The notes beneath the pieces were generated by a model. The model saw only the letters and a list, made by a program, of their open reading frames with translations. It did no database searches and was not told the origin of the DNA. A DNA stretch of 36,751 nucleotides from Deltaproteobacteria bacterium (GTDB taxonomy: Bacteria > Desulfobacterota_D > UBA1144 > Nemesobacterales > CSP1-2): contig JACPIY010000023.1 of the NCBI GenBank assembly GCA_016187835.1, positions 1 to 36,751 on the forward strand, in the 5' to 3' direction. Shown here in pieces: positions 9,941 through 36,523 of this stretch. Position 1 is the stretch's first letter. The number at the start of each line of letters is the position of its first letter. Position numbers and translations under genes: made by a program.

Positions 9941-9965
9941 TAGGGGCGGGGTCACCCCGCCCCTA
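9941..9965. repeat. Palindrome TAGGGGCGGGGT-C-ACCCCGCCCCTA
   Basis: 12-bp perfect complementary arms with a one-base centre. Confidence 0.8.
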
Positions 9966-9980
9966 CTATAATTGAGACCC

Positions 9981-10412
9981 CTAGATAGCTCTCCAGAATA
10001 ATATTCGATCAGGAATTACCTTAATTACAGGAAGATTTAAAGTGGAAAGATTCATATCCACATACTGAGTATATTTTTCACATAAAAGTCTTAGTGATCT
10101 CTGATATTCTTCTCCGCTCTCCATAAGCTCGGCTCTCCCGTGAATAATCACATAGGTGAGTTTATTCCACTCCTCATAGTAATCGTCAATCACAATTGAA
10201 ATTTTTGGATTTTCCAGGATATTTCTTATCCTCTTTAGCTCTCTTACGGACACCCGCTTGGGCTTTTTGTCAATTGGAGTATACAAATTCTTGCCGTCAA
10301 AAACGTAGCATATTGGAACGACGAGGGGCCTTCCCAGTTTGTCCGCTGTTGCCATTCTTGCGACTCTGTGTGAAAGAATAAATTGCTTTTGTCTATCCAT
10401 TGGAATATCCAT
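9981..10412 (-). CDS. Pyridoxamine 5'-phosphate oxidase-like (PPOX) split-barrel protein, possibly F420-linked
   Basis: SHRVARMATADKLGRPLVVPICYVFDGKNLYTPIDKKPKR...RIRNILENPKISIVIDDYYEEWNKLTYVIIHGRAEL resembles the Rv0121-like PPOX subgroup. Confidence 0.72.
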   Translation of the reverse strand: MDIPMDRQKQFILSHRVARMATADKLGRPLVVPICYVFDGKNLYTPIDKKPKRVSVRELKRIRNILENPKISIVIDDYYEEWNKLTYVIIHGRAELMESGEEYQRSLRLLCEKYTQYVDMNLSTLNLPVIKVIPDRILFWRAI

Positions 10413-10486
10413 CTGACGACCTTTTCTGTACTTAAGCTTACATACAAAAAAAGTTACATTAGACGGGACATTTCTGCCCTGCTGCA

Positions 10487-10515
10487 GTAGGGGCAGACTA
10501 CAGTGTGCCCCCTAC
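10487..10515. repeat. Imperfect palindrome GTAGGGGCAGACTACAGTGTGCCCCCTAC
   Basis: GTAG/CTAC ends with an imperfect GC-rich stem; between PPOX and prs. Confidence 0.65.
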
Positions 10516-10595
10516 TTGAATTCTTCTTTAGTTATTCTATAATAATTCACTTACGAGATAAAGGCTGACAGCATTTTTCATTTCAGTGAAATCAA

Positions 10596-11537
10596 ATGGA
10601 AGCCATAAAAATATTCAGTGGAACATCAAATGTTCCTCTTAGTGAAGCGGTGTGCAGGTACCTGGGTGTTTCCACATGCATAGCTGAGATCAAAAGGTTC
10701 AGTGATGGCGAGGTATTCGTGGAAATTTCAGAAAGCGTGCGTGGAACACATGTTTTTGTCATCCAGTCAACTTGTCCTCCGGTAAACGAACATATAATGG
10801 AACTTCTTATTATTACAGATGCGCTGAAAAGAGCCTCTGCAGGAGCAATTACCGCAGTTATTCCTTATTACGGCTATGCAAGACAGGATAGAAAAGTTCA
10901 GCCGAGAGCCCCTATTACTGCAAAACTCGTTGCCGATATTCTTGCTAGAGCGGGGGTAAAAAGAGTCGTCACCATGGACTTACATGCGGGACAAATTCAG
11001 GGTTTCTTTGATGTTCCAGTTGACCATCTCTACGCAGCACCAATTCTTATCAAGTACCTCAAAAAGAAGTTCAATAAAGATGAACTAGTCGTTGTCTCTC
11101 CCGATGCAGGCGGAATGGAGAGAGCAAGGGTATTCGCAAAAAGACTCGATGTTGGACTCGCTATGACAGATAAAAGGCGTCCGGCTCCAAATGAAGCCGA
11201 GATAATGAATGTTATCGGAGACGTTGTAGGGAAAACGGCTATTATAGTTGATGATCTTGTAGACACCGCAGGAACGGCGGCCCAGGCCGCTCAAGCTCTG
11301 ATAAAAGAAGGTGCAAAGCGTGTAACACTCTGTTGTACACATGGAGTACTTTCAGGCAACGCTGTCAAAAGGATTGATGATTCACTTGTCGAAGAGGTAA
11401 TAATCACGGATACGATTCCACAGAGACAAGAAACCCAAAATTGTAAAAAGATAAAAATTCTCAGCATCTCTGATCTCCTAGGTGAAGCAATAAGAAGAAT
11501 AGCTATAGGAGAGTCAATAAGTACTTTATTTACCTAA
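10596..11537 (+). CDS. prs: Ribose-phosphate pyrophosphokinase
   Basis: IKIFSGTSNVPLSEAV, FSDGEVFVEISESVRG, YYGYARQDRKVQPRAPITAKLVAD, VVSPDAGG, IIVDDLVDTAGT. Confidence 0.97.
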   Translation: MEAIKIFSGTSNVPLSEAVCRYLGVSTCIAEIKRFSDGEVFVEISESVRGTHVFVIQSTCPPVNEHIMELLIITDALKRASAGAITAVIPYYGYARQDRKVQPRAPITAKLVADILARAGVKRVVTMDLHAGQIQGFFDVPVDHLYAAPILIKYLKKKFNKDELVVVSPDAGGMERARVFAKRLDVGLAMTDKRRPAPNEAEIMNVIGDVVGKTAIIVDDLVDTAGTAAQAAQALIKEGAKRVTLCCTHGVLSGNAVKRIDDSLVEEVIITDTIPQRQETQNCKKIKILSISDLLGEAIRRIAIGESISTLFT

Positions 11538-11572
11538 TTTGCCAAAAAATATGAAACGTTAGGAGTTAAACT

Positions 11573-12235
11573 ATGGCACAGAGCACTTTATTTGTAAAAA
11601 TAAGAGAAGGGGTAGGGAAGAGCGCAGCAAAAAAGGTCAGAAAAGAAGGAGCCATACCTGCTATACTCTATGGAAAGGAAACAGGCCCCATTCCAATAGC
11701 AGTAAACCTGGTTGACTTTAAAAAAGCCCTCTCTACCGAGGCGGGGGAGAATACTTTGCTCGAGCTTCATATAAAGCGAGACACAGAAGAAATTACAAAA
11801 TTGGCTCTGCTACGTGATATTCAATTTGATTACCTTACAAGCCGCCCCATACACTTTGATTTTCAAGAAGTTCTAATGAAAGAGAAACTGACAGTGAAAG
11901 TTCCGGTAAAAATCGTTGGAAAAGCTTACGGAGTCAAGGACGAGCATGGAATCCTTGAAGAGATCCTTCGAGAGATTGAGATTGAGTGTCTTCCTTCCGA
12001 TATTCCTAATTCGTTTGAAGTTGATGTAACTCAACTCGGAATAGGAGATTCAATACATGTTAGTGATCTAGCGGTTTCCGAAAATATTACAATCCTTCAC
12101 GACCCGGATGAGACTATTATAACAATTATTTCTCCCACGGTTGAGAAGGTTGAGGAAGCTCAAGTGCCTGCCGAAGCCGAAATTGGAGCAGCCGGTGCTG
12201 AGGCTCAGGGGAAAGAGGAAGGGGATAAGGAATAA
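11573..12235 (+). CDS. rplY: 50S ribosomal protein L25/general stress protein Ctc
   Basis: VGKSAAKKVRKEGAIPAILYGKE; RPIHFDFQEV; C-terminal TL5-like domain. Confidence 0.93.
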   Translation: MAQSTLFVKIREGVGKSAAKKVRKEGAIPAILYGKETGPIPIAVNLVDFKKALSTEAGENTLLELHIKRDTEEITKLALLRDIQFDYLTSRPIHFDFQEVLMKEKLTVKVPVKIVGKAYGVKDEHGILEEILREIEIECLPSDIPNSFEVDVTQLGIGDSIHVSDLAVSENITILHDPDETIITIISPTVEKVEEAQVPAEAEIGAAGAEAQGKEEGDKE

Positions 12236-12243
12236 ATCAAACT

Positions 12244-12822
12244 ATGATTTTAGTAGTTGGCTTAGGAAATCCGGGAAAGGAATACTCTTTATCAAAGCAC
12301 AATATTGGTTTTATGGTAGTGGATGAGCTTGCAAATAGACTTGGAGTGAGTCTTAATAAGATTGGCTTTACGAGTGGTTACGGGGAAGCGCTAGTTGAAG
12401 AGAAAAAAATAATATTCCTCAAACCTCGGACATATATGAACCGAAGCGGTAAAGCAGTATCCGGGTTCGTGGATTTTTTTAAAATCCTGCCTGGAGATCT
12501 AATATTGGTCTATGATGAAATGGACCTACCATTAGGAAATCTGAAAATCAAGGTGGGCGGCGGAAGCGCCGGACATAAAGGTATTGAATCCATAATAACG
12601 TCCCTTGGCGATGATAGTTTTATAAGAGTGAGGGTAGGAATTGGAAAGCCAGGTCAAAAGTCTGAAACCGTAAACCACGTGTTATCAAAGTTTAAGAAAG
12701 ACGAAAAAAAGATAGTTGAAGACGCCTTGGTGAGAGCCGCGGATGCAGTTCTAGAAATCGTTGCCCGGGGTGTGGAAAGCGCGATGAACAAATTTAACAG
12801 AAAGCCTGATAATTTGAATTAA
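12244..12822 (+). CDS. pth: Peptidyl-tRNA hydrolase
   Basis: MILVVGLGNPGKEYSLSKHNIGFMVVDEL; FLKPRTYMNRSGKAV; GSAGHKGIESII. Confidence 0.97.
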   Translation: MILVVGLGNPGKEYSLSKHNIGFMVVDELANRLGVSLNKIGFTSGYGEALVEEKKIIFLKPRTYMNRSGKAVSGFVDFFKILPGDLILVYDEMDLPLGNLKIKVGGGSAGHKGIESIITSLGDDSFIRVRVGIGKPGQKSETVNHVLSKFKKDEKKIVEDALVRAADAVLEIVARGVESAMNKFNRKPDNLN

Positions 12823-12879
12823 TTAGTAATGTAAATTCTCGATAACAACCAGACATCCAAAAAAGGAGGAGATATTGAC

Positions 12880-14931
12880 ATGAATGAGCTAATTGCGGCC
12901 CTTTTTGGTCCCATTGTTGCTATTGTAGTCTTAGGCTATGCCTACATAACGTATAGAGAGATAAAATCGCTTCCAGACGGAACCGATAAGATGAGAGAGA
13001 TCTCTTCTGCTATCTCTGAGGGAGCTATGGTTTTTTTAAAGAGGGAATACAGAATAATTGCGATTTTCGCGATTGTTTTGTTTATTCTCCTTTCGATTTT
13101 CATTGGTATTTGGACTGGAGTTGCATACATTGGAGGTGCAGTTTGCTCAATGACAGCAGGTTTTTTCGGAATGAAGGCGGCTACAAAGGCAAACGTAAGA
13201 ACCACTCAGGCAGCAGCGACGGAGGGTCAGGGAAGAGCGCTCATTGTTGCATTTAAAGGCGGAAGCGTTATGGGTCTTTCTGTCGCCGGTCTTGGTCTTC
13301 TGGGGCTTGCCATAGCTTATGCAATTGGCATAGGACTTCCCGATAATCCTATCGAACCTAAAGCGCTCACCACGTTTGTACGGAACTTCGCCGGTATAAT
13401 CGGCGGATTCGGAATGGGTGCAAGCTCGGTCGCATTATTTGCCAGGGTCGGAGGCGGGATTTTCACCAAGGGAGCGGATGTTGGAGCAGACCTGGTAGGA
13501 AAAGTCGAAGCCGGAATTCCGGAAGACGATCCCAGAAACCCTGCGACTATTGCCGATAACGTTGGAGACAATGTAGGTGACGTTGCCGGAATGGGAGCAG
13601 ACCTATTTGAATCCTACGTTGCCGGTGTAATAGCTACAATCGTCATTGCGGCTGGAATGGACAGCCATCAAATAGCTCTTATGTCAATTCCAATAGTCCT
13701 TATAGTTATTGGTACCGCTGCCTCGGCCATAGGTGGAAAAAGCGTTGAGTGGTTCAAGGATCTCGATCCTCAACTAATCCTCCGACGCGCCACTTTTTAT
13801 ACCGGTGGAATTTATCTCGCGGCCTCACTTCTTGTTATTATAATAGCAGCCCTTGTCGATAAACTCCCATTCGGACAGGCAATGGGAATTTACGGAGCTG
13901 CAGTCCTTGGGCTTGTCGCAGGAATCGCCATAGGTCTTTTTACAGAGTACTACACATCCGGTTCTCCCATAAAGAAAATAGCCGAAGCATCTAAGACGGG
14001 CGTGGCAACAAACATAATTGAAGGGCTTGCCGTGGGAATGATCAGTACTACCCTCCCTGTAATCACAATCGCAATCGCAATCGGATTCTCCTATGCGTTT
14101 GCCGGTCTTTACGGAATTGGAATTGCCTCAGTGAGCATGCTCGCAACGATAGGGATTACAATGTCCGTAGATGCCTATGGACCCGTTGCCGATAACGCTG
14201 GAGGAATTTCGGAGATGTCTGGGCTGGGGCACGACGTGAGAAAAATCACAGATAAACTAGACTCTCTTGGGAACACAACCGCTGCAATCGGAAAAGGTTT
14301 TGCAATCGGCTCAGCCGCACTTGCTGCGCTAGCCCTTTTCGCCGCATATACAAAGGCGGTAGGACTCAGTGTAATAGACCTTACTAGTAGCAAGGTTGTC
14401 GCAGGGATGCTTATTGGAGGTACAGTTCCTTTTCTTCTTGGCGCACTGACAATGGGGGCAGTAGGAAGAACCGCACAAAAGATGGTTGAAGAAGTAAGAA
14501 GACAATTCAAAGAGATCGCGGGTCTTCTCGAAGGCAAAGGAGATGCAAAACCGGATTATGCATCTTGCGTGGGAATTAGCACTGATGCCGCACTCAAGGA
14601 AATGATAGTTCCGGGGCTCATAGCTATTATCAGCCCTCTTGTAATTGGTTTTATTTTGGGGCGGGAAGCTCTTGGAGGATTTTTAGCTGGTGCGGTTGTA
14701 ACTGGGGTCATGCTTGCTCTCATGATGGCCAATTCGGGTGGTGCATGGGATAATGCAAAGAAATATATAGAGGAGGGAAATCTCGGTGGAAAGGGGTCTG
14801 ACGCTCACAAAGCCGCGGTTGTGGGGGACACGGTTGGAGATCCATTTAAAGACACATCGGGACCCGCAATGAATATTTTGATTAAGCTTATGTCAATTGT
14901 CTCGCTCGTAATTGCACCACTATTAATATAG
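12880..14931 (+). CDS. hppA: Membrane-bound ion-translocating pyrophosphatase (K+-dependent type by motif)
   Basis: [96 protein letters not shown]. Confidence 0.96.
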
Positions 14932-14966
14932 ATAGTTGCGGAATTTAAAAAAGTCGGAAGATGGGT

Positions 14967-14996
14967 TTTGTTAGGAACTTATAAAAGCCTAACAAA
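14967..14996 (+). terminator. Stem-loop downstream of hppA
   Basis: TTTGTTAGG / CCTAACAAA, 9-bp perfect arms, 12-nt loop, 36 nt after the stop; no clear U-tract. Confidence 0.4.
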
Positions 14997-15145
14997 TCTC
15001 ATCAGAGTTTTAGGCAATGAAGCAGATTATCAAATTCAACATAAAGATATGGTATATTTCAAGTCTTAAATTCCAATCCGTTACTCTTAGCTTAAAATGA
15101 AATTTGGAGCTTTGGGTCGGAAGTCCAAAACGGGAGGTAAGTTAA

Positions 15146-15502
15146 ATGTCTAAGTTAAACTATTATGAAACACTCTACCTTACTAGGCCAGACCTCACGG
15201 ATGATGAACTAAACAAGGTGCAGGGAAGGCTCAAGGAGTCAATAGTAAGCCATGAGGGAGAGATTTATAAATCGGATAAATGGGCCGAGAGAGACCTTGC
15301 TTACAGAATTAGCAATTATTCCAAGGGGGTCTACTATATATTGGTCTACAAAGCGCTTCCAAGCGTTGTGGCCGAGATAGAAAAAAACCTGAAATTTCTT
15401 AACACTGAAGTACTCAGGTTTATGACAGTAAAGATAGAAGAAACATCAGCTTTAAAACATAAATCCGTTTCAGAAACACAGGCTGATCAGGGAGGCATAT
15501 AA
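15146..15502 (+). CDS. rpsF: 30S ribosomal protein S6
   Basis: YYETLYLTRPDLTDDELNKV...DKWAERDLAYRISNYSKGVYYILVY; followed by S18 and L9. Confidence 0.95.
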   Translation: MSKLNYYETLYLTRPDLTDDELNKVQGRLKESIVSHEGEIYKSDKWAERDLAYRISNYSKGVYYILVYKALPSVVAEIEKNLKFLNTEVLRFMTVKIEETSALKHKSVSETQADQGGI

Positions 15503-15505
15503 GCA

Positions 15506-15742
15506 ATGGAGAATCCAAAGGAAAAGAAGTTTTTTACAAGAAAAAAAATTTGTAAATTCTGTTCGGAAGCATTGGGGATAGACTATAAGAACTTTGATCT
15601 TCTTTCACAGTTTATAACCGAAAGGAAAAAGATAGTGCCGAGAAGAAGCACCGGACTTTGCGCATACCATCAAAGAGAGCTTGCTTCAGCAATAAAGCGA
15701 GGGCGAATTATGGCTCTTCTTCCCTTTACAGTGCTTCATTAA
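15506..15742 (+). CDS. rpsR: 30S ribosomal protein S18
   Basis: [62 protein letters not shown]. Confidence 0.96.
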
Positions 15743-15811
15743 ATGTCTTTAGCTGTTAGTCGCTGGCTTAAAAATCAAAGACGACCGTGCGAACATTAGG
15801 AGGGATCATAC

Positions 15812-16261
15812 ATGAAGGTTATTCTATTAGATGATGTGGAACTGTTTGGCAAAAGGGGGGAAATAAAGGAGGTAAAGAAAGGCCTTGCTAGAAATTACCT
15901 GCTCCCACGAAAAATGGCTATTGAAGCGACACCTGGGAACCTAAAAATCTGGGAGCAGCAAAAGCGGGCTTTAACTAAAAAAGAAGAGAAATTGAAAGCG
16001 GAGGCCCAAGGCCTGGCAGCAGAGCTGGAGGGGGTTTCCTGTACCATTCCTGTGAAAGTGGGAGAGGAGGAAAAACTATATGGTTCCGTGACTTCTCAAA
16101 ATATATCGGATGCTCTTTCCAAGCAGGGATTTGAAATTTCAAGAAAGGATATTGAATTGGATGCGCCGATTAAAACTCTCGGAACCCATGAAGTGAAGGT
16201 AAGGCTTTATACTAATGTCGCTGTAAATATAAATGTCGAAGTAGTAAAAGAAGGATTATAG
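15812..16261 (+). CDS. rplI: 50S ribosomal protein L9
   Basis: [55 protein letters not shown]. Confidence 0.96.
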
Positions 16262-16284
16262 TTTCCCCAAGTCATTTTGTTTTT

Positions 16285-16310
16285 TAGGGGTTCAAAATTT
16301 TGAACCCCTA
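16285..16310. repeat. 26-bp perfect palindrome TAGGGGTTCAAAATTTTGAACCCCTA
   Basis: Self-complementary; identical 26-mer at 34634..34659. Lies between convergent rplI (+) and 16315..17157 (-). Confidence 0.9.
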
Positions 16311-16314
16311 CCTT

Positions 16315-17157
16315 TTATTTGCTCGGTTGCATTATTTCCTGAAGAGTGACTTTCTTATATCCAGTCGGAGGCTCAAATTCGCTATCCGATATATCAGCCT
16401 TGTTGACCTTTACTATTTCTTCAATATAAACCTTGCCGCCTGAAGAATAATCTACAGACCTTGTGGGAAACCCCGATTCGTATATCTCTTTAAAAATCTT
16501 TTGCTCTTCGTCCCAATTAGATTCACCTGCTCCTGCTTTCTCGCTTATTTTTTTTATCTCACTCATATAATTTGCCATCTTTTTCATATCAAGCTCATTG
16601 CCAAACCCCATATCATCGCTGATCCAGATTTCTTCGCTGAGTTTGCCCTCCTCGTAAATTTCGTATTTGTTAGACTTATATCCAGCAATAGCTTCAGTTA
16701 CATGGGTCTTTTTTAAAGTCACATTCTTGGGTTTTTTCTCCTGACCTGGAACTGTAATTCCCTGAGATTTCATCATCTCTTCAGCCTGAGCTCTTTGTTC
16801 AGGAGGAAGCTGTGATAATTGATTTTCTAACTCGGTCTTCATCTTATTGGTAATATCCTGGATAAATTGAAAATAGTCACCTGGGCTTGCAACAACATAT
16901 CTTTTTCCCGCGTTATCTATTTGAATCATCTCGCCCGTGTTTAAATCGAATATGGCTACTCCCTGTCCATTCTGTTCCTCAACGAATTTGATTCTATTGT
17001 TCTTAACAAAAATTTCCCCTTTTTTCTTTGTGGAATCTCCTTTTTGATAACTAACTTGCTCAATTATAAACCCCGCAAATGCTTTTTCTGAAAGACTAAT
17101 TGCAACCAAGGTTATGATAAGTAAAAAAACAAAAGCAAACTTTACAAAGCTGCTCAT
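16315..17157 (-). CDS. Exported hypothetical protein (DUF4412-like)
   Basis: Signal-like N-terminus; KGEIFVKNNRIKFVEEQNGQGVAIFDLNTGEMIQIDNAGKRYV, VTEAIAGYKSNKYEIYEEGKLSEEIWISDD pattern. Confidence 0.55.
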   Translation of the reverse strand: MSSFVKFAFVFLLIITLVAISLSEKAFAGFIIEQVSYQKGDSTKKKGEIFVKNNRIKFVEEQNGQGVAIFDLNTGEMIQIDNAGKRYVVASPGDYFQFIQDITNKMKTELENQLSQLPPEQRAQAEEMMKSQGITVPGQEKKPKNVTLKKTHVTEAIAGYKSNKYEIYEEGKLSEEIWISDDMGFGNELDMKKMANYMSEIKKISEKAGAGESNWDEEQKIFKEIYESGFPTRSVDYSSGGKVYIEEIVKVNKADISDSEFEPPTGYKKVTLQEIMQPSK

Positions 17158-17375
17158 TCTGCTTTCCTCCTGAAAATCTATTTAGTTTCTCCTGAATTAA
17201 GACATATTACACTAACCTATAAATCCCTAACTGCCTAGGGTTTTTTCAGCACATTTGGAAAGATGAATTGTGAATTGCAAGATGAGTATTGGTGTGAGAT
17301 AGCTATTGACGCTCAACTTATTTATGATAGATTAACTCTTGTAAGATAGTTTTTTAAAGGGAGGTAGTTCTAATT

Positions 17376-18185
17376 ATGGCGGAGAAGAAAGGGCTTTTTG
17401 CACCAGTGGGGGAAAAAGAGGTCACAAGAGCAATCCTCGAAGAGTACACAAAGGAGTTTCACGAATACGTTGAAAGCGATGTGATAGTTGTAGGAAGCGG
17501 TCCAAGCGGGCTTGTAGCAGCAAAAGACATTGCAAAAAAGAGATATAAAGTTTTGCTTGTCGAAAGGATGAATTACCTTGGCGGTGGATTCTGGATTGGT
17601 GGATACCTTATGAATAAGGTTACGGTAAGAGATCCCGGACAAAAAGTACTTGATGAAATAGAAGTTCCTTACAAGGAAGTATCTGATGGACTCTACGTAG
17701 CTGATGGTCCTTATGCGTGTTCGAAATTAATAGCAACCGCATGTGAAGCGGGTGTAAAGGTTGCAAATATGACTATGTTTGATGACCTTGTCTTCAGGGA
17801 AAACGCACGCGTAGCGGGAGTGGTTGTAAACTGGACTCCTATATCAAATATGCCGAAGGAAATAACCTGTCTTGATCCGATTGCGCTTGAGGCAAAACTC
17901 GTGATAGATGCAACGGGTCATGATGCCTACCTGGTTTCAAGGCTGGCTCAACAAGGGCTTTTTAAGAAGCTACCCGGACACGGTTCTATGTGGGTAGAAA
18001 AAGCCGAGGATGCTCTGGTTGAATATACTGGAGAAGTTCATCCGGGCTTAATTGCCTGCGGAATGTCAGTAAGCAGCACGTATGGGCTTCCTAGAATGGG
18101 GCCGACCTTTGGCGGGATGCTTCTTTCTGGTAAAAAGGCTGCAGAGGTTGCAATAAGCATACTTCAGGAACAGGCGAGGGCTTAG
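17376..18185 (+). CDS. thi4: Sulfide-type / THI4-family thiamine thiazole synthase
   Basis: [108 protein letters not shown]. Confidence 0.92.
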
Positions 18186-18330
18186 AAAAATATTCAGCAA
18201 TAGCTTGAAAGTCATAGAGTACTAAGACTGAAATAGTTCTAGAATCATAGTATTCGACAAATCTTTTCTTATTTCTTTAAGACCTTTTCCACTTTGAGAT
18301 GCGCGCGGGCGATTTGTTATATCTCTAGAC

Positions 18331-18360
18331 AGCAGGCTGGAGCAGACACTCCAGCCTGCT
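18331..18360. repeat. Hairpin AGCAGGCTGGAG-CAGACA-CTCCAGCCTGCT
   Basis: 12-bp perfect arms, 6-nt loop, downstream of thi4. Confidence 0.8.
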
Positions 18361-18463
18361 GGGTATAGGAAGCAGTTTTCTCTTAAAAGATGCAGTTGCG
18401 GGAGACATCGCCATTATTGACGCTCACGCTCGATCCCGGAACGAGGACAGGCATAGATGAATT

Positions 18464-18976
18464 TCATGGGAATGCCACAAAGTTGGCACCAGCTGCATAA
18501 AATTCGAATTCATGACTCATCATCTCTACCCCCGCATTAACTCTGACTGAAATGCCCAGAGCTCGATTGATCTGCCATTTTTGACCTAGGTTTAGTTGCA
18601 CATCTTTGGAGCCCGACCAGTTTCCTGTAAGCGTTTTAAATTTGATATTACCGTCATAAACGTCGATTTGTGACACCCAAGCGTCAGCGCTACCCGTCTT
18701 GAATTTGAGCCTTATGTATTGAACCCCCTTGGAGCCACCCCCAAGAGTTGGAATAGAAAAATGTACCCAATTAGAACTCCCAGCGCTAAGATCAAAATCC
18801 AACCCCCAACCATAGTAAAATGGGTAATTCGCGACTAAACCCTCGTCTTGTATATGTCCACTTTGACCATGGGCATAATACCATGTTGCGTAGGCCGGGC
18901 TAGATAATGTGAGCATAATCCCCAGCAATAGGCATGTGAGCAGTGGTACCCGAATATTATGTGATAGCTTTTTCAT
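18464..18976 (-). CDS. Small secreted protein (possibly DUF6623-like)
   Basis: Signal peptide MKKLSHNIRVPLLTCLLLGIMLTLSSPAYA; WVHFSIPT...YIRLKFKTGSADAWVSQIDVYDGN. Confidence 0.55.
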   Translation of the reverse strand: MKKLSHNIRVPLLTCLLLGIMLTLSSPAYATWYYAHGQSGHIQDEGLVANYPFYYGWGLDFDLSAGSSNWVHFSIPTLGGGSKGVQYIRLKFKTGSADAWVSQIDVYDGNIKFKTLTGNWSGSKDVQLNLGQKWQINRALGISVRVNAGVEMMSHEFEFYAAGANFVAFP

Positions 18977-19078
18977 GATACTTTACCTCCTTCAATAAAA
19001 TGTTTTGGTTTATCTTTAGTTGTTTTACTAAAAAATCACCCCCTTCTTAATATTTTTTATAGAACAATTGAAAAGGAC

Positions 19079-19098
19079 AATAATGCAAATGCATTATT
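19079..19098. promoter_or_regulatory. Operator-like palindrome AATAATGCA-AA-TGCATTATT
   Basis: 9-bp perfect arms with 2-nt spacer, about 100 bp upstream of the secreted protein gene; related ATGATGCATATGATGA nearby. Confidence 0.4.
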
Positions 19099-19160
19099 TT
19101 TCTTCATCATATGCATCATTTTTATAGGTACATGCGTTTTTAAAAGAGAGGTGGATAAAC

Positions 19161-19841
19161 TTAAATCAACTTATTCTTAATAGCATAGATAACTGCCTGT
19201 AGTTTGGTATGAAGCCCAAGCTTAGTGAGGATATTTTGTATGTGTTTTCGGACAGTAGCCCAGCTTATGTAAAGCTCCTTGGCTATAGCATTGGTACTGG
19301 CCCCTTCGGCAAGAAGCCTTAGTACCTGACGCTCACGACGGTTTAGACTAGGTTTGGGTTGGTTCTTTAAAGGGCTGATCTTAGCAAATGGAGTGTTGTT
19401 TTCAGCCCGGTTGGTTAGTTTTATAGTGGAAATAAGCTCTTGGATTAACTCCTCGCTTCCCTTTTTCCTAGTTATATCCCGAAATATATGTACAACTGCG
19501 TTAAGCTCTTTTTGCCTTGCAGGAACGGCAACAATACTTACATTAATCCATACAGGATCTCCAGCCTTAGAATGGGTAAGCATATCGTAATTCTCAACCA
19601 TTTCCCTTCTTTGAATGAGATTCAAGACATGACAGCTTCTGGAACATACAGGCTTATCACTCTTATCCCTTCCGGCAATTACTTCGTAACAATACCTTCC
19701 CAATACTTCTTTTGCCTTGAATCCAAGAATGTTTTGGGCGGCTTTATTCCAGAAGATAATTTTGCGTTCACCGTCTACAACGAAGACACCATCGGCTGTA
19801 TTTACGAAGATCTCAAGTATGTCTTTAGCATTTAGTTTCAC
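19161..19841 (-). CDS. PAS domain - LuxR-type HTH transcriptional regulator
   Basis: GVFVVDGERKIIFWNKAAQNILGFKAKEVLGR (PAS); LNRRERQVLRLLAEGASTNAIAKELYISWATVRKHIQNILTKLGLHTKLQAV (LuxR HTH). Confidence 0.88.
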   Translation of the reverse strand: MKLNAKDILEIFVNTADGVFVVDGERKIIFWNKAAQNILGFKAKEVLGRYCYEVIAGRDKSDKPVCSRSCHVLNLIQRREMVENYDMLTHSKAGDPVWINVSIVAVPARQKELNAVVHIFRDITRKKGSEELIQELISTIKLTNRAENNTPFAKISPLKNQPKPSLNRRERQVLRLLAEGASTNAIAKELYISWATVRKHIQNILTKLGLHTKLQAVIYAIKNKLI

Positions 19842-20093
19842 AATGCATATTATACCACTTGCTATTTTCTACTTTCAAAGACTCTTAGATTCGTATAATA
19901 GACATTATCAAAAATTAAGATATAAAGCCATCATACTTTCTAGGTTATGGTTTTAGACATATCTACATTCTGCTCTGAAGCTACGTAATCCACACGCAAT
20001 TCCCACCGCTAATCATCATAATTCCCTTGTGATTTATAAGAATGGGATGCCCCTTTTTTCTACCAACTTGATATATTATCTGAGGAAATCTTT

Positions 20094-20906: not shown

Positions 20907-20945
20907 TCACTTCGCTCGGTCTAAACTCCGCGAAGCAATCTGATA

Positions 20946-20974
20946 TGTCGTTCTGAACGTAGTGAAGAATCTCA
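20946..20974. repeat. Copy of a TCGTTCTGAACGTAGTGAAGAATCTC-type dispersed repeat
   Basis: TGTCGTTCTGAACGTAGTGAAGAATCTCA resembles the GTCATTCTGAGCGAAGCGAAGAATCTC repeat seen across many bacterial genomes. Confidence 0.5.
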
Positions 20975-21051
20975 ATGTCAAGGGATTGCTTAGTCGTTTC
21001 GCTCCTCGCATTTACACATTGTTTAATTAGCAATTTGGGTCGATTCAATTT

Positions 21052-24363: not shown

Positions 24364-24375
24364 GGAGGTTAAAAG

Positions 24376-25578: not shown

Positions 25579-25815
25579 AATCGTAGGGGTATAAAATTGT
25601 GCGCCTCTATTTCATCTTTTGGCATGAGAAAATACATATAGCCAAAATCTAAAAATTTTTATCTCATAGAAATTCCTTAGAATAATATCGAAGATTTATT
25701 TAGAGCTGAAATCCCAAATCTAATGGGATTTAGAATAAGGGTGCTTAGTTGTAGCGTAATCCTTCAGGATTCCATTTTTTGGAGGCTTATCGTTTTTAAA
25801 ATATAAATTTTGTAA

Positions 25816-25842
25816 TAGCGGGACAGGAATGTCCCGCCTATC
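25816..25842 (+). repeat. Hairpin repeat, copy 1 (TAGCGGGACAGGAATGTCCCGCCTATC)
   Basis: Internal 8-bp stem GCGGGACA/TGTCCCGC; inverted relative to copy 2 at 25862..25888. Confidence 0.8.
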
Positions 25843-25861
25843 CAAGATCCTGAATATAAGC

Positions 25862-25888
25862 GATAGGCGGGATTTTCTAATCCCGCTA
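25862..25888 (-). repeat. Hairpin repeat, copy 2 (GATAGGCGGGATTTTCTAATCCCGCTA)
   Basis: Reverse complement of copy 1 with about 5 mismatches in 27 nt; own stem GCGGGATT/AATCCCGC. Confidence 0.8.
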
Positions 25889-25990
25889 ATTTTAATTAGT
25901 TCCCTTCTCTTGAAAACTTTTAGCCAACTCAAGTTATTAGGCATAGTGAGGTTTTCACTACGCAGTTATACTGAATTAAGTCAACAAACT

Positions 25991-28888: not shown

Positions 28889-28943
28889 AATAACAAAGCT
28901 ATTAACTTATAAATGTTGCACAGCTTCAACCCTTTTATTACAG

Positions 28944-29021
28944 AACAGATAAGAATGTCTGTTTTATAAATATTGAGATAACAAAAATCATAACTAGGTG
29001 GGTCAGACATTCCTGTCTGCC
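28944..29021. repeat. Pair of related hairpins downstream of the FAD/Fe-S gene
   Basis: AACAGATAAGAATGTCTGTT and CAGACATTCCTGTCTG; the second carries the GACAGGAATGTC core (other strand) also present at 25822-25833. Confidence 0.6.
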
Positions 29022-29050
29022 TTATGAAATTTATTTCTTAAAGCGATATT

Positions 29051-29234
29051 ACTGGAACGAAATTAAAACCCAACTGAGTAAAAGAGCCGGCGAAGGAGCA
29101 GATTTAGATTACTAAAATCGGTCTATTTAAGGGTAGAAAATTTTCTTGTCTTGACATATCTATTCTGAATATTCTAGAATGGAACTAAGACCCAAGCGAG
29201 TAAAAGAGTTCCCAAAGGTGCAATTTTAGTCTAC
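29051..29234 (+). repeat. Imperfect direct repeat, two units about 127 bp apart
   Basis: ACTGGAACGAAATTAAAACCCAACTGAGTAAAAGAG... at 29051 and AATGGAACTAAGACCCAAGCGAGTAAAAGAG... at 29178. Confidence 0.6.
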
Positions 29235-29831
29235 AAATTAATGTTTCTATCCTAATGGAAAAAGTCTTTTCTATCGCTTCTTCCCACACCAAGAGAGATA
29301 AATATTAATAAAGCGGATGTGAGAAAGCGGGTCTAAAAAAAGCTCAGGAGACTGGGTAGAATGCAATGTCAGAGTTGTGGGTTTGAAAATCCGGAGGGGA
29401 TGAATTTTTGTGGCAAGTGCGCCAGCCCACTCAGTCTTCGCTGCCTGCAGTGCGGCTTTGAAAATCTACACGGGTTTGCTTTCTGCGGCAAGTGTGCTGC
29501 TCCTCTAATAGGGCAAACTCTGGTTCCCAAACCCATTCAGACAGATAGGCAGTTGGATAAGCAAGAAGATAAAATTGCGCCCGAGGCCGAGCGCCGCCAG
29601 TTAACGGTAATGTTTTGTGATTTGGTGGGCTCGACAGATCTCTTAGAGCAACTCGATCCCGAAGAGCTTCGAGATGTAGTGCGTGCCTATCAAGAGGTCT
29701 GTGCAAAAGTAATTGACCGCTTTGAGGGATATATTGCACAGTATCTGGGCGACGGTTTGCTGGTCTACTTTGGTTATCCCATTGCTCACGAAGACGATGC
29801 CCAGAGGGCGGTGAGAGCTGGGCTGGAAATT

Positions 29832-29859
29832 GTAGGGGCAGTTCATGAACTGCCCCTAA
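29832..29859. repeat. GTAGGGGCAGTTCATGAACTGCCCCTAA palindrome inside the cyclase frame
   Basis: 26-bp perfect palindrome TAGGGGCAGTTCATGAACTGCCCCTA (29833..29858); encodes GAVHELPL. Confidence 0.9.
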
Positions 29860-30488
29860 TAAAAAGGCGATTACAGCAACCTCTACAGGTTCGCGTAGGG
29901 ATTCACACAGGTCTTGTAGTAGTGGGAGAGATGGGAGGAGGAGAAAAGCGCGAACGGCTTGCCTTAGGCGATACGCTAAACATTGCTTCTCGGGTACAGA
30001 ACCTAGCCAAACCAAACACGGTGGTGATCAGCTCCGCCACCTATTGGCTTGTAGAGGGATTGTTCGAATGCCGTGATCTCGGTCTGCACACATTGAAGGG
30101 AGTTTCGACTCCGTTAGAAGTATATCGGGTTCTTCTGGAGAGTGATGTCTGGAGCCGATTCGAGGTTGCGGTCGGTAAAGGTTTAACACCACTGGTAGGA
30201 AAAGAACAGGAGGTAGGGCTTTTGCTGGAGCGCTGGGATCAGGTCAAGGAAGGGATGGGACAGGTAGTATTGATTCGCGGGGAGGCTGGCATAGGCAAAT
30301 CGCGCCTTGTACAGGTGATGAAAGAGCAAGTAGCTGGAGAGACACATACGAGGATAGAGAGCCGCTGTTCACCCTATTATCAGAACAGTTCCCTATATCC
30401 GGTGATTGATCATTTGCAGCGGCTGCTGTTTAGGAAGGAAGATTCTCTCGAAGAGAAGCTGGAAAAGCTTGAGAGAGCACTGGTAAAT

Positions 30489-30544
30489 GTAGGGGCAGAC
30501 CCCCGTGTCTGCCCTAAAGAGGGCGAACACATAGGTTCGCCCCT
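30489..30544. repeat. Tandem hairpin module GTAGGGGCAGAC...GTCTGCCC / GGGCGAAC...GTTCGCCC
   Basis: Arms 30493-30500/30507-30514 and 30521-30528/30535-30542; translated in frame as GADPRVCPKEGEHIGS. Confidence 0.9.
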
Positions 30545-31520
30545 TCAGGAGATGGTGCCTCTTTTTGCCTCTCTGCTATCTCTACCGCTTCTTGACCGCT
30601 ACCCACCTCTCAATCTAACTCCCCAGAGGCAGAAACAGAAGACTCTTGAGGCTTTGCTGGTTTTGCTGCTTAAAGGAGGCGGAGAAGCAGCCGGTACTGC
30701 GTATAGTGGAAGACCTGCACTGGGGGTGGATTCCTCAACTCTTGAATACCTAAGTCTTCTTATGGAGCAGGTGCCTACGGCCCGTATCTTCACTCTGCTT
30801 ACCTTTCGTCCGGATTTTAGCCCACCTTGGACTGGCCGTGCGCACCTGACCCAGATCACGCTTAATCGCTTAACTCGAAAACAAGTAGAGGTGATGGTGG
30901 GCAGGATAACGGGAGGTAAATCTCTTCCGAATGAGGTGGTACAGCAGGTTGTGACTAAAACCGATGGGATACCACTTTTTGTATAAGAGTTAACTAAAAT
31001 GGTTTTGGAGTCAGGATTGCTAAGAGAGCAAGAGGGTCACTTTGGGCTTACGGGTCCGTTACCCCCGCTTGCTCTTGCTCAAAGGCTATCTCACCCCTAT
31101 AGCACATGGGTTTCGCCCTGCGCTCTGTTGTTGTAGTCCATCAGTTCCGCTTCGAGAGGCAAGCAGTTCAGGAGTGGGCAGAGAAGTTGATTGCGCTCTC
31201 TAACGAGCAAGGATTTGCGTACTGGTTGGCATGGGGAACTATCTTGAGGGGTTGGGCAATTGCAAAGCAGGGAGGAGGGGAGGAGGAAATCGCTCAGATA
31301 CGCCAGGGCTTGGCCGCCCACCGGGCCACGGAGGCAGAACTGGCGCAGCCGTATTTTCTTGCCCTGCTGGCAGAGGCGTATGGAGGAATAGGAAAAGCCG
31401 AAGAGGGGCTTACTGTGTGGCCGAGGCACTGGATGTAGTGAACAAAAATGGGGAGCGTTTCTTTCTACGAAGCGGAGTTGTATCGGCTCAAGGGGGAGTT
31501 ACTGCTGAGACAGGGTACAG

Positions 31521-31548
31521 GTAGTGGCGGTTCGCGAACCGCCACTAC
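31521..31548. repeat. 28-bp perfect palindrome GTAGTGGCGGTTCGCGAACCGCCACTAC
   Basis: Self-complementary 14+14; within the C-terminal part of the cyclase pseudogene (SGGSRTATT). Confidence 0.9.
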
Positions 31549-31820
31549 GGAGGAGGCTGAAGCCTGTTTTTGCCAGGCTATTGAGATTGCCAATCCCCAG
31601 AGTGCAAAGTCTTTGGAGCTGCGGGCGGTGATGAGCTTGAGTCGTCTCTTGCAGAAACAGGGCAAGAGAGAAGAAGCCCGAAATATGCTGGCAGAGACTT
31701 ACGGCTGGTTTACAGAGGGATTTGAGACTAAGGACTTAAAAGAGGCGAAGACACTGCTTGAGGAGTTATCGAGGGATTAGACACGAATATGAACGCGGAT
31801 TTACATGAATAAAGTGATAC

Positions 31821-31898
31821 AGGATACAGGATGCACTATGCATGATCCATGAAATTTTACGTGTACCTTGTATTTCCCTATCTTGCATCCTGCATCCT
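31821..31898. repeat. Inverted repeat AGGATACAGGATGCA / TGCATCCTGCATCCT
   Basis: Arms 31821..31835 and 31884..31898, 14/15 matched, 48-nt spacer. Confidence 0.7.
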
Positions 31899-31959
31899 TC
31901 TTATTTCCCAATGGTTGCTTGTACTTTTTATCACATTATCAATATTATACGTGTTGAAC

Positions 31960-32208
31960 ATGTGTAAAGGAGGGTTTATATGTAGAAAAAAACTGATTAT
32001 TACTATAGACGAAAAAGTTTACGAAGGATTATATCGAGTTATTGGTCATAGAAATATCAGTCAATTTATAGAGTCTTTGGTTAGACCTCACGTTGTATCT
32101 CAAGATTTAGAAGCTGCTTACAGGGAAATGGCGCAGGACGAAGCCCGTGGAGCTGAGGCGTAGGAATGGTCGGAAGCTACGATTGGAGATGTTAGCGATG
32201 AACCGCGG
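31960..32208 (+). pseudogene. MazE/VapB-like antitoxin remnant
   Basis: KKLIITIDEKVYEGLYRVIGHRNISQFIESLVRPHVVSQDLEAAYREMAQDEARGAEA, then in-frame TAG (32161-32163), then EWSEATIGDVSDEPR and TGA in the same frame. Confidence 0.7.
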
Positions 32209-32251
32209 TGAGGTGTGGTGGGTAAACTTTGAGTCAGATGCCGGCTTTTAG
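32198..32251 (+). pseudogene. MazF/PemK-like toxin remnant (first 17 codons)
   Basis: ATG overlapping the antitoxin end: MNRGEVWWVNFESDAGF* matches the start of MazF/PemK toxins (MNRGEVWWVNFEP...), then stops. Confidence 0.7.
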
Positions 32252-32355
32252 GCAACTTTAGTAATAGGGGGCAATATAAATATGGATGGAAAAAGCACCT
32301 TAGCGAATTATCAGATGCGATTTGTAGCCGCGAGGCGGTTCAGGAGGGAAATAAG

Positions 32356-33144
32356 ATGCCCTTAGAAGAGAATAAAGTTACTGTTGTAATAGGAGCGAGC
32401 AGAGGGATTGGCCGCTGCTCTGCCCTTGGCCTGGCCCAGGCAGGCGCTGATGTGGTGGTAGCTGCCCGCACTGAGCCTGACATAAAGTCGCTGGCCAAAG
32501 AGATTGAGGATATGGGGCGAAGGTCTTTGGCTGTGAAAGTCGACGTTAAGCAAAAAGCGAATATTGAGAATCTGGTGCAGCAGACCGTGGATAGGTTTGG
32601 CAAGATAGACATTTTGGTTTACTCCTCAGGTGTGCTCTATTTGGAAAGGACGCTGGCCGAATCCAAAGATGAGAACTTTGAGGAGATGATGGCTGTGAAT
32701 GTCAGGGGGCCCTACTGGGCTATGCGGGAGGTTCTTAACTTGGGGGGAATGTTAGAGCGCAAAAGTGGCCGCATTATTGTCATTGCCTCTGACTCAGCTA
32801 AGAGGGGCGAAGCCGGTTTAGCCGTGTACGATGCCTCAAAACATGCCGTGTTAGGCTTGGTGCGCGGTCTGGCCATGGAGGTAGGGGCGATGGGAATCAT
32901 CGTTAATGCGGTGTGTCCGGGATTCGTGTGGACAAAGATGGCGCAAGACGTGGCCCCTCAATTAGCTGAGATATATGGAATTCCGACTGAGGGGATGGAT
33001 GAATTTCTTAGGAGCATCGATCCGCTCAAGCGGATTGCCACACCCGAGGAGGTGGCCGATGTGGTGGTTTTCCTTGCCATGACTCCTGGCGGTGGGGCCA
33101 TGACCGGACAAGGGCTCTGTATGGCTACCACGATATTGTCTTAA
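32356..33144 (+). CDS. SDR family NAD(P)-dependent oxidoreductase
   Basis: VVIGASRGIGRCSALGLAQAGADVVVAAR; YDASKHAVLGLVRGLAMEVG (YxxxK); VCPGFVWTKM. Confidence 0.92.
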   Translation: MPLEENKVTVVIGASRGIGRCSALGLAQAGADVVVAARTEPDIKSLAKEIEDMGRRSLAVKVDVKQKANIENLVQQTVDRFGKIDILVYSSGVLYLERTLAESKDENFEEMMAVNVRGPYWAMREVLNLGGMLERKSGRIIVIASDSAKRGEAGLAVYDASKHAVLGLVRGLAMEVGAMGIIVNAVCPGFVWTKMAQDVAPQLAEIYGIPTEGMDEFLRSIDPLKRIATPEEVADVVVFLAMTPGGGAMTGQGLCMATTILS

Positions 33145-33282
33145 GGTAATTGACTAGCGCTAAAAACATCAATATTTTCAAAGCATTAGATTTTTCAGAG
33201 GCGCCCTCAAACCGCCTTTTTGGTCTTCGCGCCAGGGATAGAGACTCTGTAACTATTTGATTTATATAGGTCGGTTACATAA

Positions 33283-33477
33283 TATAGAATAAAGAAAGCA
33301 TACATAGCAGCAAAGAAGCTCAAGGCTGGGACACTTTGGATTAACACTTATCATGCTTTTGATGTGGGTTCACCTTGGGGTGGATATAAGATGAGCGGAT
33401 TCGGAAGGGAGTTGGGAATGCAGGCTCTAGACCTCTATACCCAGGTAAAAAGTGTATTTGTGGACCTGAATATGTAG
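33283..33477 (+). pseudogene. Aldehyde dehydrogenase C-terminal fragment
   Basis: IKKAYIAAKKLKAGTLWINTYHAFDVGSPWGGYKMSGFGRELGMQALDLYTQVKSVFVDLNM*: the ALDH C-terminus, with no upstream body. Confidence 0.85.
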
Positions 33478-33843
33478 ATCAGGACTTAACCAGTTGATAG
33501 CATTATAAATAGAAACAGTCAGAGGTACTAACATCTTTAAAGTAGGTGACAGCTATGAACTAAGGATTACATTATCCATCACTTATAAGTTCTTGGAAGT
33601 AAGTTTTTTAGGGGAACAAAAAGTGTTTTCGTACAATATGCCTTACAACAGCATTGGGAGATTCCACGAAAACATTATGTCCAAGTACTAGAGAGTCCAG
33701 TAGGTAGAATTATCAATAATGTTTCATAGCTGTTAGAGTTTGAACAAAGATTTGTCTTTAATCTGACCAGAGTAGATTTTTCTTTCCCTAAAGTTCCGTT
33801 ATATTAATTCAGGAGAAATAGTTATTTCCTTAGAAAACATACT

Positions 33844-34620
33844 ATGAGTTTCCATCCAAAAACTATCTCAATAATACCAATCATCGGAATTCCTGAAATA
33901 AAGCCCGGTGATGACCTTGTAAGGTTAGTAACCGAAGCTGCATTTAAACAAGACATCTCAATTACTAATGGAGACCTAGTTGTCTTTGCTCAAAAGATAA
34001 TTTCAAAAGCGGAGGGTAGGGTAGTTAAGCTGAGTGATGTATCTCCTTCTCCCTTTGCAGTTCAAATAGCCAGCGAACTGAACAAAGACCCGCAGTTCGT
34101 AGAAGTAATACTCGGTGAAACGAAAAGAATAGTAAAGATGGACAGAAAGTTGGATAGGGGAATGTTAATTGTGGAATCAAAACAAGGGATTATCTGTGCC
34201 AATGCTGGGATTGACGCATCAAACGTTTCGGGTGGGGAAATGGTAACCCTTCTTCCAATTGATCCTGACGAATCGGCCAAAAAACTAGCTGAAGGATTTA
34301 AGGAGAAATTGGGAGTAGAGGTCCTGGTCATAATCACGGATACCGTAGGAAGACCTTGGCGTGAGGGGCTTACAGAAATTGCCATAGGATGTTGGGGAAT
34401 GAAACCGCTTAAAGATTATAGGGGACATTCGGATTCAAAGGGTTATAAGTTAAGTGCAACTCTCCTTGCCGTAGCCGATGAGATTGCAGGAGCGGCAGGA
34501 CTGGTTATGGGGAAAAACGATTCCGTTCCCGTAGTTATTGTAAGAGGCTATACATACGAACCGGGAGGCGTGGGTGCTAGGGAACTCATAAGAAAACCGG
34601 AGGACGACCTGTTTCGTTGA
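33844..34620 (+). CDS. cofE: Coenzyme F420-0:L-glutamate ligase
   Basis: GIPEIKPGDDLVRLV; GDLVVFAQKIISKAEGRVVKL; GIICANAGIDASNV; VLVIITDTVGRPWREGLTEIAIGCWGMKPLKDYRG. Confidence 0.92.
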   Translation: MSFHPKTISIIPIIGIPEIKPGDDLVRLVTEAAFKQDISITNGDLVVFAQKIISKAEGRVVKLSDVSPSPFAVQIASELNKDPQFVEVILGETKRIVKMDRKLDRGMLIVESKQGIICANAGIDASNVSGGEMVTLLPIDPDESAKKLAEGFKEKLGVEVLVIITDTVGRPWREGLTEIAIGCWGMKPLKDYRGHSDSKGYKLSATLLAVADEIAGAAGLVMGKNDSVPVVIVRGYTYEPGGVGARELIRKPEDDLFR

Positions 34621-34632
34621 ATGAGAATATTT

Positions 34633-34660
34633 GTAGGGGTTCAAAATTTTGAACCCCTAC
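34633..34660. repeat. 28-bp perfect palindrome GTAGGGGTTCAAAATTTTGAACCCCTAC
   Basis: Self-complementary; inner 26 bp identical to 16285..16310. Between convergent cofE (+) and ubiA-like (-). Confidence 0.95.
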
Positions 34661-34674
34661 TGAATGTTTAATCC

Positions 34675-35568
34675 TTATCTAAGAAATCGCAGAATATCTT
34701 GTAGATGGATGATTATAGCCGTAACTACTACCCAGAGAAATACACATATAAACAGTCCTCTATCTTTAAGAAGGGCTTCTGTCGGTTCTCCGTTTGAATT
34801 GGTTTGTACGAGGTACACATAGCGAAGAACGCCGTAGCATACGAAAGGAACTGTTATAAAAAGCCCTTTTACGCCTCTCTCCACTACATATATCGAGTAA
34901 GTTACAATCGCGGTTGTTGAAAAAATACCTAATGTGCTATCGAGGAAATTAACCGTGTATTTGGCAAGGACCTTTCTGTGAGAGGTTGAATTATCGAAGG
35001 ATGAAAGTTCAAAACGCCTCTTGCCAAAGGCAAGGAGAAGTGAAAGTAGAAAAGTTACTATAAAAAGCCATGTTGAGACCCGTATTCTTGAAGCTATTCC
35101 TCCGGCTTCAATTCTAAAAACGAAACCGAGAGCGATACAAAAAGCATCCAGTATTAATACATGTTGGAGAGAAAACGAATATACAACATCGAGTAAAAGA
35201 TAGAGAAATATTATTAATATGAATTCCTTGCCGAATCTAAGGGAAAGTCCTATTGATACTGCGAGGGTCAACAAAATCAGAAGGACTGCTTGGACTGTGT
35301 TTATCCTGCCCGATGCGATGGGCCGGAGTTTCTTTTTTGGGTGATGTCTGTCAGCCTCCTTATCATACAAGTCGTTTATTATGTATCCTGCCGAAGACGC
35401 AAATGAAAAAGCAAAAAAGGCCTGAACCATTTTTAAAAACACCTCGGTGTGATTGAAGAGCACGCCGCCGAACAGGGGAGGGGCAAAAATTAGCAGGTTT
35501 TTTACCCAGTGAGGGGGCCTGAGGAGGTAGATAAAATCTTTAAGGGGAATTTTCATTTGGGTTATCAT
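34675..35568 (-). CDS. UbiA-family decaprenyl-phosphate phosphoribosyltransferase-like protein
   Basis: LLRPPHWVKNLLIFAPPLFGG; GYIINDLYDKEADRHHPKKKLRPIASGRI; multiple TM segments; DPPR-synthase-like. Confidence 0.85.
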   Translation of the reverse strand: MITQMKIPLKDFIYLLRPPHWVKNLLIFAPPLFGGVLFNHTEVFLKMVQAFFAFSFASSAGYIINDLYDKEADRHHPKKKLRPIASGRINTVQAVLLILLTLAVSIGLSLRFGKEFILIIFLYLLLDVVYSFSLQHVLILDAFCIALGFVFRIEAGGIASRIRVSTWLFIVTFLLSLLLAFGKRRFELSSFDNSTSHRKVLAKYTVNFLDSTLGIFSTTAIVTYSIYVVERGVKGLFITVPFVCYGVLRYVYLVQTNSNGEPTEALLKDRGLFICVFLWVVVTAIIIHLQDILRFLR

Positions 35569-35694
35569 TCTACAGTCTCTAAAACATATTGCAATGAGTT
35601 TAGTCAGGTCTCAGGTATTATTATAGTCAATCACGTGGCTTTCCGTAGAGTCGTTGGGATATACCTTTGGTGTTTATTCCTCAGTTTGGGAGAA

Positions 35695-36495
35695 ATGGCA
35701 ATAAAAACATGGCGCAGCGGAATAGTGCATATCAAAATAACAGGCGGATGTTTTGTCTCTTTCTTCTTCGTGATGTCTCTAATTTATGGATTGTCCGGGG
35801 GATGTAGCAATATGAAAGATACGGAAAAACGACATTTCTATAAGATTGCTCATCGTGGAGCAAGTGCCTATGAGCCTGAAAATACATTGCGGTCCTTCAA
35901 GCGCGCAATAGAAATCGGGGCTGAGATGATGGAGTTTGACGTGAGGTTTTCTCAGGATGGTCATCTTGTGATCATTCACGATAAAAAGGTAGACAGAACA
36001 ACAAACGGACACGGTTTGGTAAGGGAAATGACACTTAGTGAGCTTAAAAAGCTCGATGCGGGGAAAGGAGAGAAAATTCCTACCCTGGAAGAGGTATTTG
36101 ATTTTGGGAAAGGAACAATAAAATTTGTGGTTGAGTTAAAAGATAGAGGAACCGAGGAAAAGGTTATAAACCTGGTAAGGGATAAAGGTTTAATTGATGA
36201 TGTATTTCTTGTGTCCTTTCATTGCGATCTGATAAAAAGGGCAAAGAGTTTAGAGCCGAGGATAAGGACAGGACTAATTATGCTTTTTTCTTTTGACACG
36301 GTGGGAAAAGGAAAAGAATGCCGAGCAGATGCAGTTGCTCCATCTCAATATTTTATTACTAGAGGCATGGTAGAGAAAGTTAATAAAAACGGTATGTTTT
36401 TGTTTGCCTGGACTGTTGATGATCCCAAGAAAGCTAAAAAACTTAAGGAAATAGGAGTGGACGGCATAGTTACCAATAAACCGGATTTATTATAA
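35695..36495 (+). CDS. Glycerophosphodiester phosphodiesterase, probable lipoprotein
   Basis: YKIAHRGASAYEPENTLRSFKRAIEIGAEMMEFDVRFSQDGHLVIIHDKKVDRTTNG; lipobox-like SLIYGLSGGCSN. Internal ATG 35695 preferred over the ORF start 35509. Confidence 0.88.
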   Translation: MAIKTWRSGIVHIKITGGCFVSFFFVMSLIYGLSGGCSNMKDTEKRHFYKIAHRGASAYEPENTLRSFKRAIEIGAEMMEFDVRFSQDGHLVIIHDKKVDRTTNGHGLVREMTLSELKKLDAGKGEKIPTLEEVFDFGKGTIKFVVELKDRGTEEKVINLVRDKGLIDDVFLVSFHCDLIKRAKSLEPRIRTGLIMLFSFDTVGKGKECRADAVAPSQYFITRGMVEKVNKNGMFLFAWTVDDPKKAKKLKEIGVDGIVTNKPDLL

Positions 36496-36523
36496 GTAGA
36501 GACGCATTGCTATGCGTCTCTAC
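36496..36523. repeat. Palindrome GTAGAGACGCAT-TGCT-ATGCGTCTCTAC
   Basis: 12-bp perfect arms, 4-nt loop, GTAG/CTAC ends; directly after the GDPD stop codon. Confidence 0.9.

Follow-up and report, generated by a model that had tools for sequence, protein, structure and literature searches.

The GTAG...CTAC palindromes dispersed over the window (the whole 36,751-nucleotide stretch of DNA that was analysed) are, with a probability of about 90%, non-autonomous REP elements spread by RAYT HUH/tyrosine nucleases of TnpAREP subclass 2.4 (RAYT group 4) whose genes lie elsewhere in this genome. The occurrence of the palindromes, the RAYT genes, the in-frame embedding of palindromes in these genes, the matching of dispersed to embedded stems and the co-occurrence of both across genomes were observed directly. 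These findings support the initial annotation, which had proposed REP elements mobilised by a RAYT; the cutting and movement of the elements and the rule by which they are recognised are inferred.

Palindromes in the window and in the genome

The layout described for eight sites was borne out when the sequence was read again (Table 1). The set comprises six elements of about 28 bp of the double-foot type, in which a 5' GT[AG]G foot is paired with a 3' C[TC]AC foot across a long stem, one imperfect palindrome and one two-hairpin REPIN. The copies at 31521, 34633 and 36496 are exact GTAG...CTAC palindromes; those at 9941 (ATAG...CTAC), 16285 (TTAG...CTAC) and 29832 (GTAG...CTAA) are perfect palindromes with one mutated foot each. 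The tandem module at 30489 was present as described and forms a single unit of 58 bp, but is a REPIN of another sub-type. The reported variation of the interiors held in so far as several stem families coexist, but the stems do not all differ, since 16285 and 34633 share one, of which more copies are found elsewhere in the genome. The element at 29832 codes for VGAVHELPLI inside the cyclase region.

Table 1. Features of the window
Feature	Position	Strand	Description
REP	9941..9966	.	double-foot; stem GGGGCGGGGT (TAGGGGCGGGGTCACCCCGCCCCTAC); flanked by two minus-strand ORFs
Palindrome	10487..10515	.	imperfect GTAG...CTAC (GTAGGGGCAGACTACAGTGTGCCCCCTAC); divergent ORFs either side
REP	16285..16311	.	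double-foot; stem GGGGTTCAAAATTT; convergent ORFs either side
Adenylate cyclase-AAA-TPR gene	29361..31780	+	broken into several frames; hosts the elements at 29832, 30489 and 31521
REP	29832..29859	.	GTAGGGGCAGTTCATGAACTGCCCCTAA; in frame within ORF 29361-30986
REPIN	30489..30546	+	two different hairpins; bounds GTAGGGGC...GCCCCTTC; in frame (VGADPRVCPKEGEHIGSPL)
REP	31521..31548	.	double-foot; stem GTGGCGGTTCGCG; in decayed TPR part of the 29361-31780 gene
REP	34633..34660	.	double-foot; stem identical to 16285; convergent ORFs either side
REP	36496..36523	.	double-foot GTAGAGACGCATTGCTATGCGTCTCTAC; immediately 3' of the stop codon of ORF 35509-36495

With arms of at least 11 and loops of at most 6, the window holds seven perfect palindromes compared with a mean of 0.12 per shuffle. 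A 401 kb genome sample contains 26 such palindromes, mostly tagged with GTAG...CTAC, and its shuffles contain 0-2, none of them tagged. In the whole genome of 2.86 Mb, TAGGGG...CCCCTA occurs in 61 copies (2 for the reversed control), TAGAGAC...GTCTCTA in 54 (control 0) and a looser palindrome pattern in 142 (control 13). The initial annotation would have abandoned the REP reading had a genome-wide count not exceeded shuffled sequence; the counts lie far above shuffles and controls, so this objection falls away, and the repeats are dispersed and of high copy number as GTAG REPs are.

A second hairpin family (GACAGGAATGTC / GACATTCCTGTC) is present at window positions 25816-25888 and 28946-29019. 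Three in-frame hairpins of this second family lie within another RAYT-like gene (L006, 1-1128), and two of the three pair between GTAGG and CCTAC.

RAYT genes and their embedded stems

As the initial annotation said, the window itself contains no RAYT gene. The mobiliser, which the initial annotation had left open, has candidates elsewhere in the genome, and its REP/RAYT reading is thereby supported. The RAYT/Y1 search that it had suggested returned several RAYT genes: the genome has 14 Y1_Tnp matches, and one RAYT group is represented at seven or more loci. Three of the best, all complete (C84, C90 and C67), have a GTAG palindrome nearby and another in frame just past the HUH motif. In C84 the 20-bp core of the in-gene palindrome recurs upstream and downstream of the gene, and in C90 a two-hairpin REPIN of the type found at window 30489 lies within the gene and in both flanks. 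A profile built from these three genes retrieved further copies (C103, C105, C57 and C70) and partial ones, with embedded stems GGGGCGTTCAATT (C105), GGGGTTTGATTA (C57) and AGACGCAAAATT (C70). In the genome's own genes L011, L012 and L014 the in-frame REP lies between the HUH and Y motifs.

The RAYT genes possess the HUH, WQ and YIxNNP motifs, with little or no variation in PNHxHG and REYIxNNP; they score above the Pfam cut-off for Y1_Tnp and have HUH and a single catalytic Tyr in the Y1 domain. REP_Tyr_transpos was the best NCBIfam model for all three group-4 genes at 61-69 bits, below the equivalog cut-off of 80 that other RAYT-like genes of the same genome exceed. The best solved-structure match by sequence and by fold (E 2.9e-7) was the E. 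coli RAYT bound to REP (4ER8), the nearest solved fold to the predicted structure of L014 (mean pLDDT 87). In this model the palindrome-encoded segment links the HUH strand to the helix that follows it; confidence there is low, and the segment is probably disordered. The HUH/tyrosine fold is shared with TnpA of IS200/IS605 elements (IS608, ISDra2), the fold matches of which ranked below 4ER8; unlike these, the RAYT genes have REPs and not IS ends next to them, and REP_Tyr_transpos outscores the IS200 model. The group matches the published description of TnpAREP subclass 2.4 / RAYT group 4, an assignment based on the shared unique feature of an in-frame REP. In two other Y1 transposase genes (L003 and L004), the C-terminal region matches DnaA models.

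A search of named genomes yielded 80 RAYT relatives from Bacteroidota, Chloroflexota, Cyanobacteriota, Nitrospirota, Planctomycetota, Pseudomonadota, candidate phyla and others, and with the family copies 94 genes were analysable. In 81 of the 94 a palindrome (tagged in 77) follows HUH and precedes WQxxFYDH, a motif that itself lies before the catalytic Tyr; this is the in-frame REP between HUH and Y motifs that distinguishes subclass 2.4 / group 4. Palindrome density amounts to 4.71 per kb in this segment and 0.22 in the remainder of the gene. The embedded palindromes measure 28 bp (61 cases), 29 bp (22) or other lengths (three), and the first base of their GTAG falls on codon position 1 (64) or 2 (22) but never on 3, where a TAG stop would arise. 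Importance of the embedded palindrome as a peptide was rejected as a general explanation, since an identical stem is read in frames 0 and 1 (L091 and L099 versus L098); the low confidence and probable disorder of the modelled segment would also count against it. The core sequences of the RAYTs L107 and L108, which come from a Spirochaetia and a Bacteroidota genome, share about 85% identity, and both genes have the same stem, a likeness pointing to a recent transfer between phyla.

Among 41 genomes of the order, the RAYT group was found in six, all in the family of the window. Their palindrome counts relative to control were 142/13, 123/18, 69/8, 61/12, 15/8 and 16/15, four of the six being clearly palindrome-rich, and the remaining 35 genomes fell below control with the exception of two (11/6 and 10/4). 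RAYT presence and palindrome enrichment were associated over the 41 genomes (Mann-Whitney p=9e-5). There are exceptions on either side: in G054 RAYT genes are present without an excess of the pattern (16 vs 15), and in G084 a small excess (10 vs 4) occurs without these RAYTs. Of 49 genomes reached via RAYT loci, 41 contain the pattern, in up to 123 copies with controls of 0-2.

The dispersed stems were matched to the embedded ones. Among 100 listed dispersed elements of this genome, at least three of which are themselves in-gene copies, 82 have a ten-base arm with at most one mismatch from a RAYT-embedded arm; the matched arms stem from this genome (13), same-family genomes (41) and other phyla (28). 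The single-arm count was 78; shuffles gave 27 on average and at most 38. For the 70 genes parsed in the flank test, which was computed on a cut made before minus-strand loci were corrected, mean identity of the in-gene core was 0.79 to the gene's own ±1 kb flanks and 0.61 to the flanks of other genes (p<2e-4), and own-flank identity reached at least 85% in 31 of the 70 where 1.2 were expected. The stem of 16285 and 34633 recurs in RAYT genes L146 (from the same-family genome G054) and L129. A hairpin pair nearly identical to that of 30489 lies within the RAYT gene G052:C8:16101-16679 (L155), and the stem family of 36496 appears in the Patescibacteria RAYT gene L067. For 9941, 10487 and 31521 no cognate RAYT was found in the set of genes compared. 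The interiors thus vary because several stem families coexist, most of which match stems embedded in RAYT genes.

Sites in related genomes and alternative explanations

The nearest relatives belong to other genera and are about 65-79% identical at these sites. The cyclase gene is multi-copy in related genomes, and its homologue in G052, an open frame of 1130 aa with about 78% identity, is without the REPIN that adds VGADPRVCPKEGEHIGSPL in frame in the window. At the site of 31521, the same loop is occupied by another GTAG element in the homologues of G052 and G055. Different GTAG elements in this one loop across genera (window 31521; L193 3965-4011; L194 about 4755-4801) suggest repeated insertion at one site or replacement of the stem within it. 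The site matching 16285 has a decayed palindrome in G050 and none in the alignments of G052, G053 and G054. The palindrome of 36496 is absent from the matching site in G050, and that of 10487 is missing from the matching region in four same-family genomes. In G055 the intergenic region matching 36496 (L177, about 10260-10340) contains two other GTAG palindromes close together. The empty-site comparison that had been proposed found relatives without most elements, a result consistent with insertion; as a comparison between genera it is only partly informative and captured neither an insertion nor an excision event.

RAYT activity may have ceased in this genome, leaving copies that are only inherited and decay. 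The decayed counterpart of 16285 at the same site in G050 and the internal stops in several RAYT copies of relatives would fit such relics, but many copies in the genome are perfect palindromes that share a stem across separate loci, and several RAYT frames are intact, which makes this rather unlikely. The palindromes could also have nothing to do with transposition and be intergenic terminators of the ordinary kind, retained to end transcription in both directions. The elements at 16285 and 34633 do lie between convergent genes, 36496 directly follows a stop codon, and both 16285 and 36496 passed a terminator scan. However, these were the only two of eight sites that did so, and scan hits for a stem with a T-tract did not exceed the frequency in shuffles overall; an open frame contains 29832 and 30489, and the decayed remainder of the same gene contains 31521. 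Most elements are moreover missing from matching sites in relatives, and palindrome abundance tracks the RAYT genes. We regard terminators as a very improbable general explanation, and some elements may have a secondary role of this kind. Least credible are operators, binding sites maintained for dimeric regulators: the perfect dyad symmetry and partly intergenic placement are offset by dozens of different stems, by copies that lie within genes or at their ends and by the occurrence of identical stems in RAYT genes of unrelated phyla, and the operator reading was rejected.

Recognition and relation to known REP systems

Under the RAYT reading, the enzyme would most likely recognise the hairpin in single-stranded DNA by its GTAG foot together with a few adjoining base pairs, cut it and join it elsewhere, and either strand could be used because both ends take the form GTAG...CTAC. 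The inner stem would mainly need self-complementarity and would therefore drift, giving rise to many stem families. RAYTs would usually keep a copy of their own stem in a tolerant loop of their own gene, and often alongside it, so that horizontal transfer would carry enzyme and substrate as a pair, and the lineage could have accumulated a number of these pairs. A plasmid search gave four weak carriers, and plasmids as the vehicle were unsupported.

The distance between RAYT cores correlated with the distance between stems (r=0.34; permutation maximum 0.13). For the four bases after GTAG the correlation was 0.46, and for the inner six 0.10, inside the permutation range. Head classes required 5 changes on the RAYT tree compared with 31.6 when shuffled. 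The bases just inside GTAG thus track the RAYT tree and the inner stem does not, the outer-stem signal resting largely on one deep split of the tree. The E. coli RAYT residues W94 and Q95 are described as lying in the GTAG-contacting region (PMC6006769). The residue pair after WQ corresponded to the head in 72 of 77 genes (RN with GGG, xR with AGA or GGAC, KS with GGAA), a rule fitted on the same data, confounded by the deep split and contradicted by L086 and L154. Beside the foot, the target-site preference was limited to a weak T (54%).

Tentatively, and with the odds somewhat against it, we propose from these sequence correlations that group-4 RAYTs might read only GTAG and the next three or four base pairs by a short WQ-adjacent code (WQRN/GGG, WQxR/AGA or GGAC, KS/GGAA) and leave the inner stem free, the embedded copy serving as a heritable label by which an enzyme would stay matched to its substrate when transferred from one phylum to another. 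This model predicts that single-stranded hairpins of GTAGAGAC and GTAGGGGC would be told apart by their outer bases, irrespective of the inner stem.

The central feature is already known. TnpAREP subclass 2.4, which corresponds to RAYT group 4 of Bertels 2017, is described as combining double-foot GTAG...CTAC REPs with in-frame REPs inside the tnpAREP gene (Quentin et al. 2018; PMC6006769). The elements presented here resemble that description in the GTAG...CTAC at both ends, the long perfect hairpin and the scattered occurrence over many phyla. The additions are quantitative; relative to the main text of that paper, they consist of the cross-genome matching of dispersed to embedded stems, the usage of two frames and outer-stem classes that, unlike the inner stem, follow the RAYT tree.

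GTAG REPs with unpaired GTAG, intragenic copies and repeat-specific REPtrons were reported by Di Nocera et al. 2013 (PMC3733652). Common to both are a GTAG end, palindromes of 20-40 bp, several families per genome, in-frame intragenic copies and repeat-specific REPtrons; unlike those REPs, in which GTAG is unpaired and at one end only, GTAG is paired with CTAC in most copies here. The 30489 module resembles REPINs and BIMEs in its two hairpins, GTAG-type bounds and length of about 58 bp, but the stems of its hairpins differ from each other and its outer 3' foot is degenerate (CTTC).

Recognition in vitro has been demonstrated for groups 2 and 3 (Corneloup 2021; PMC8266576). In the literature examined, the choice of REP was addressed for these two groups and no such study of group 4 was found. 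The outer-stem bases set against the two residues beside the GTAG-contacting WQ would provide a concrete, testable rule for how a RAYT chooses its REP. Each palindrome type here is usually traceable to a transposase gene with the same palindrome inside its own frame. Palindromes that look unrelated thereby become a readable record, in which the transposase lineage behind a copy can often be told from its stem, even in genomes without the gene.
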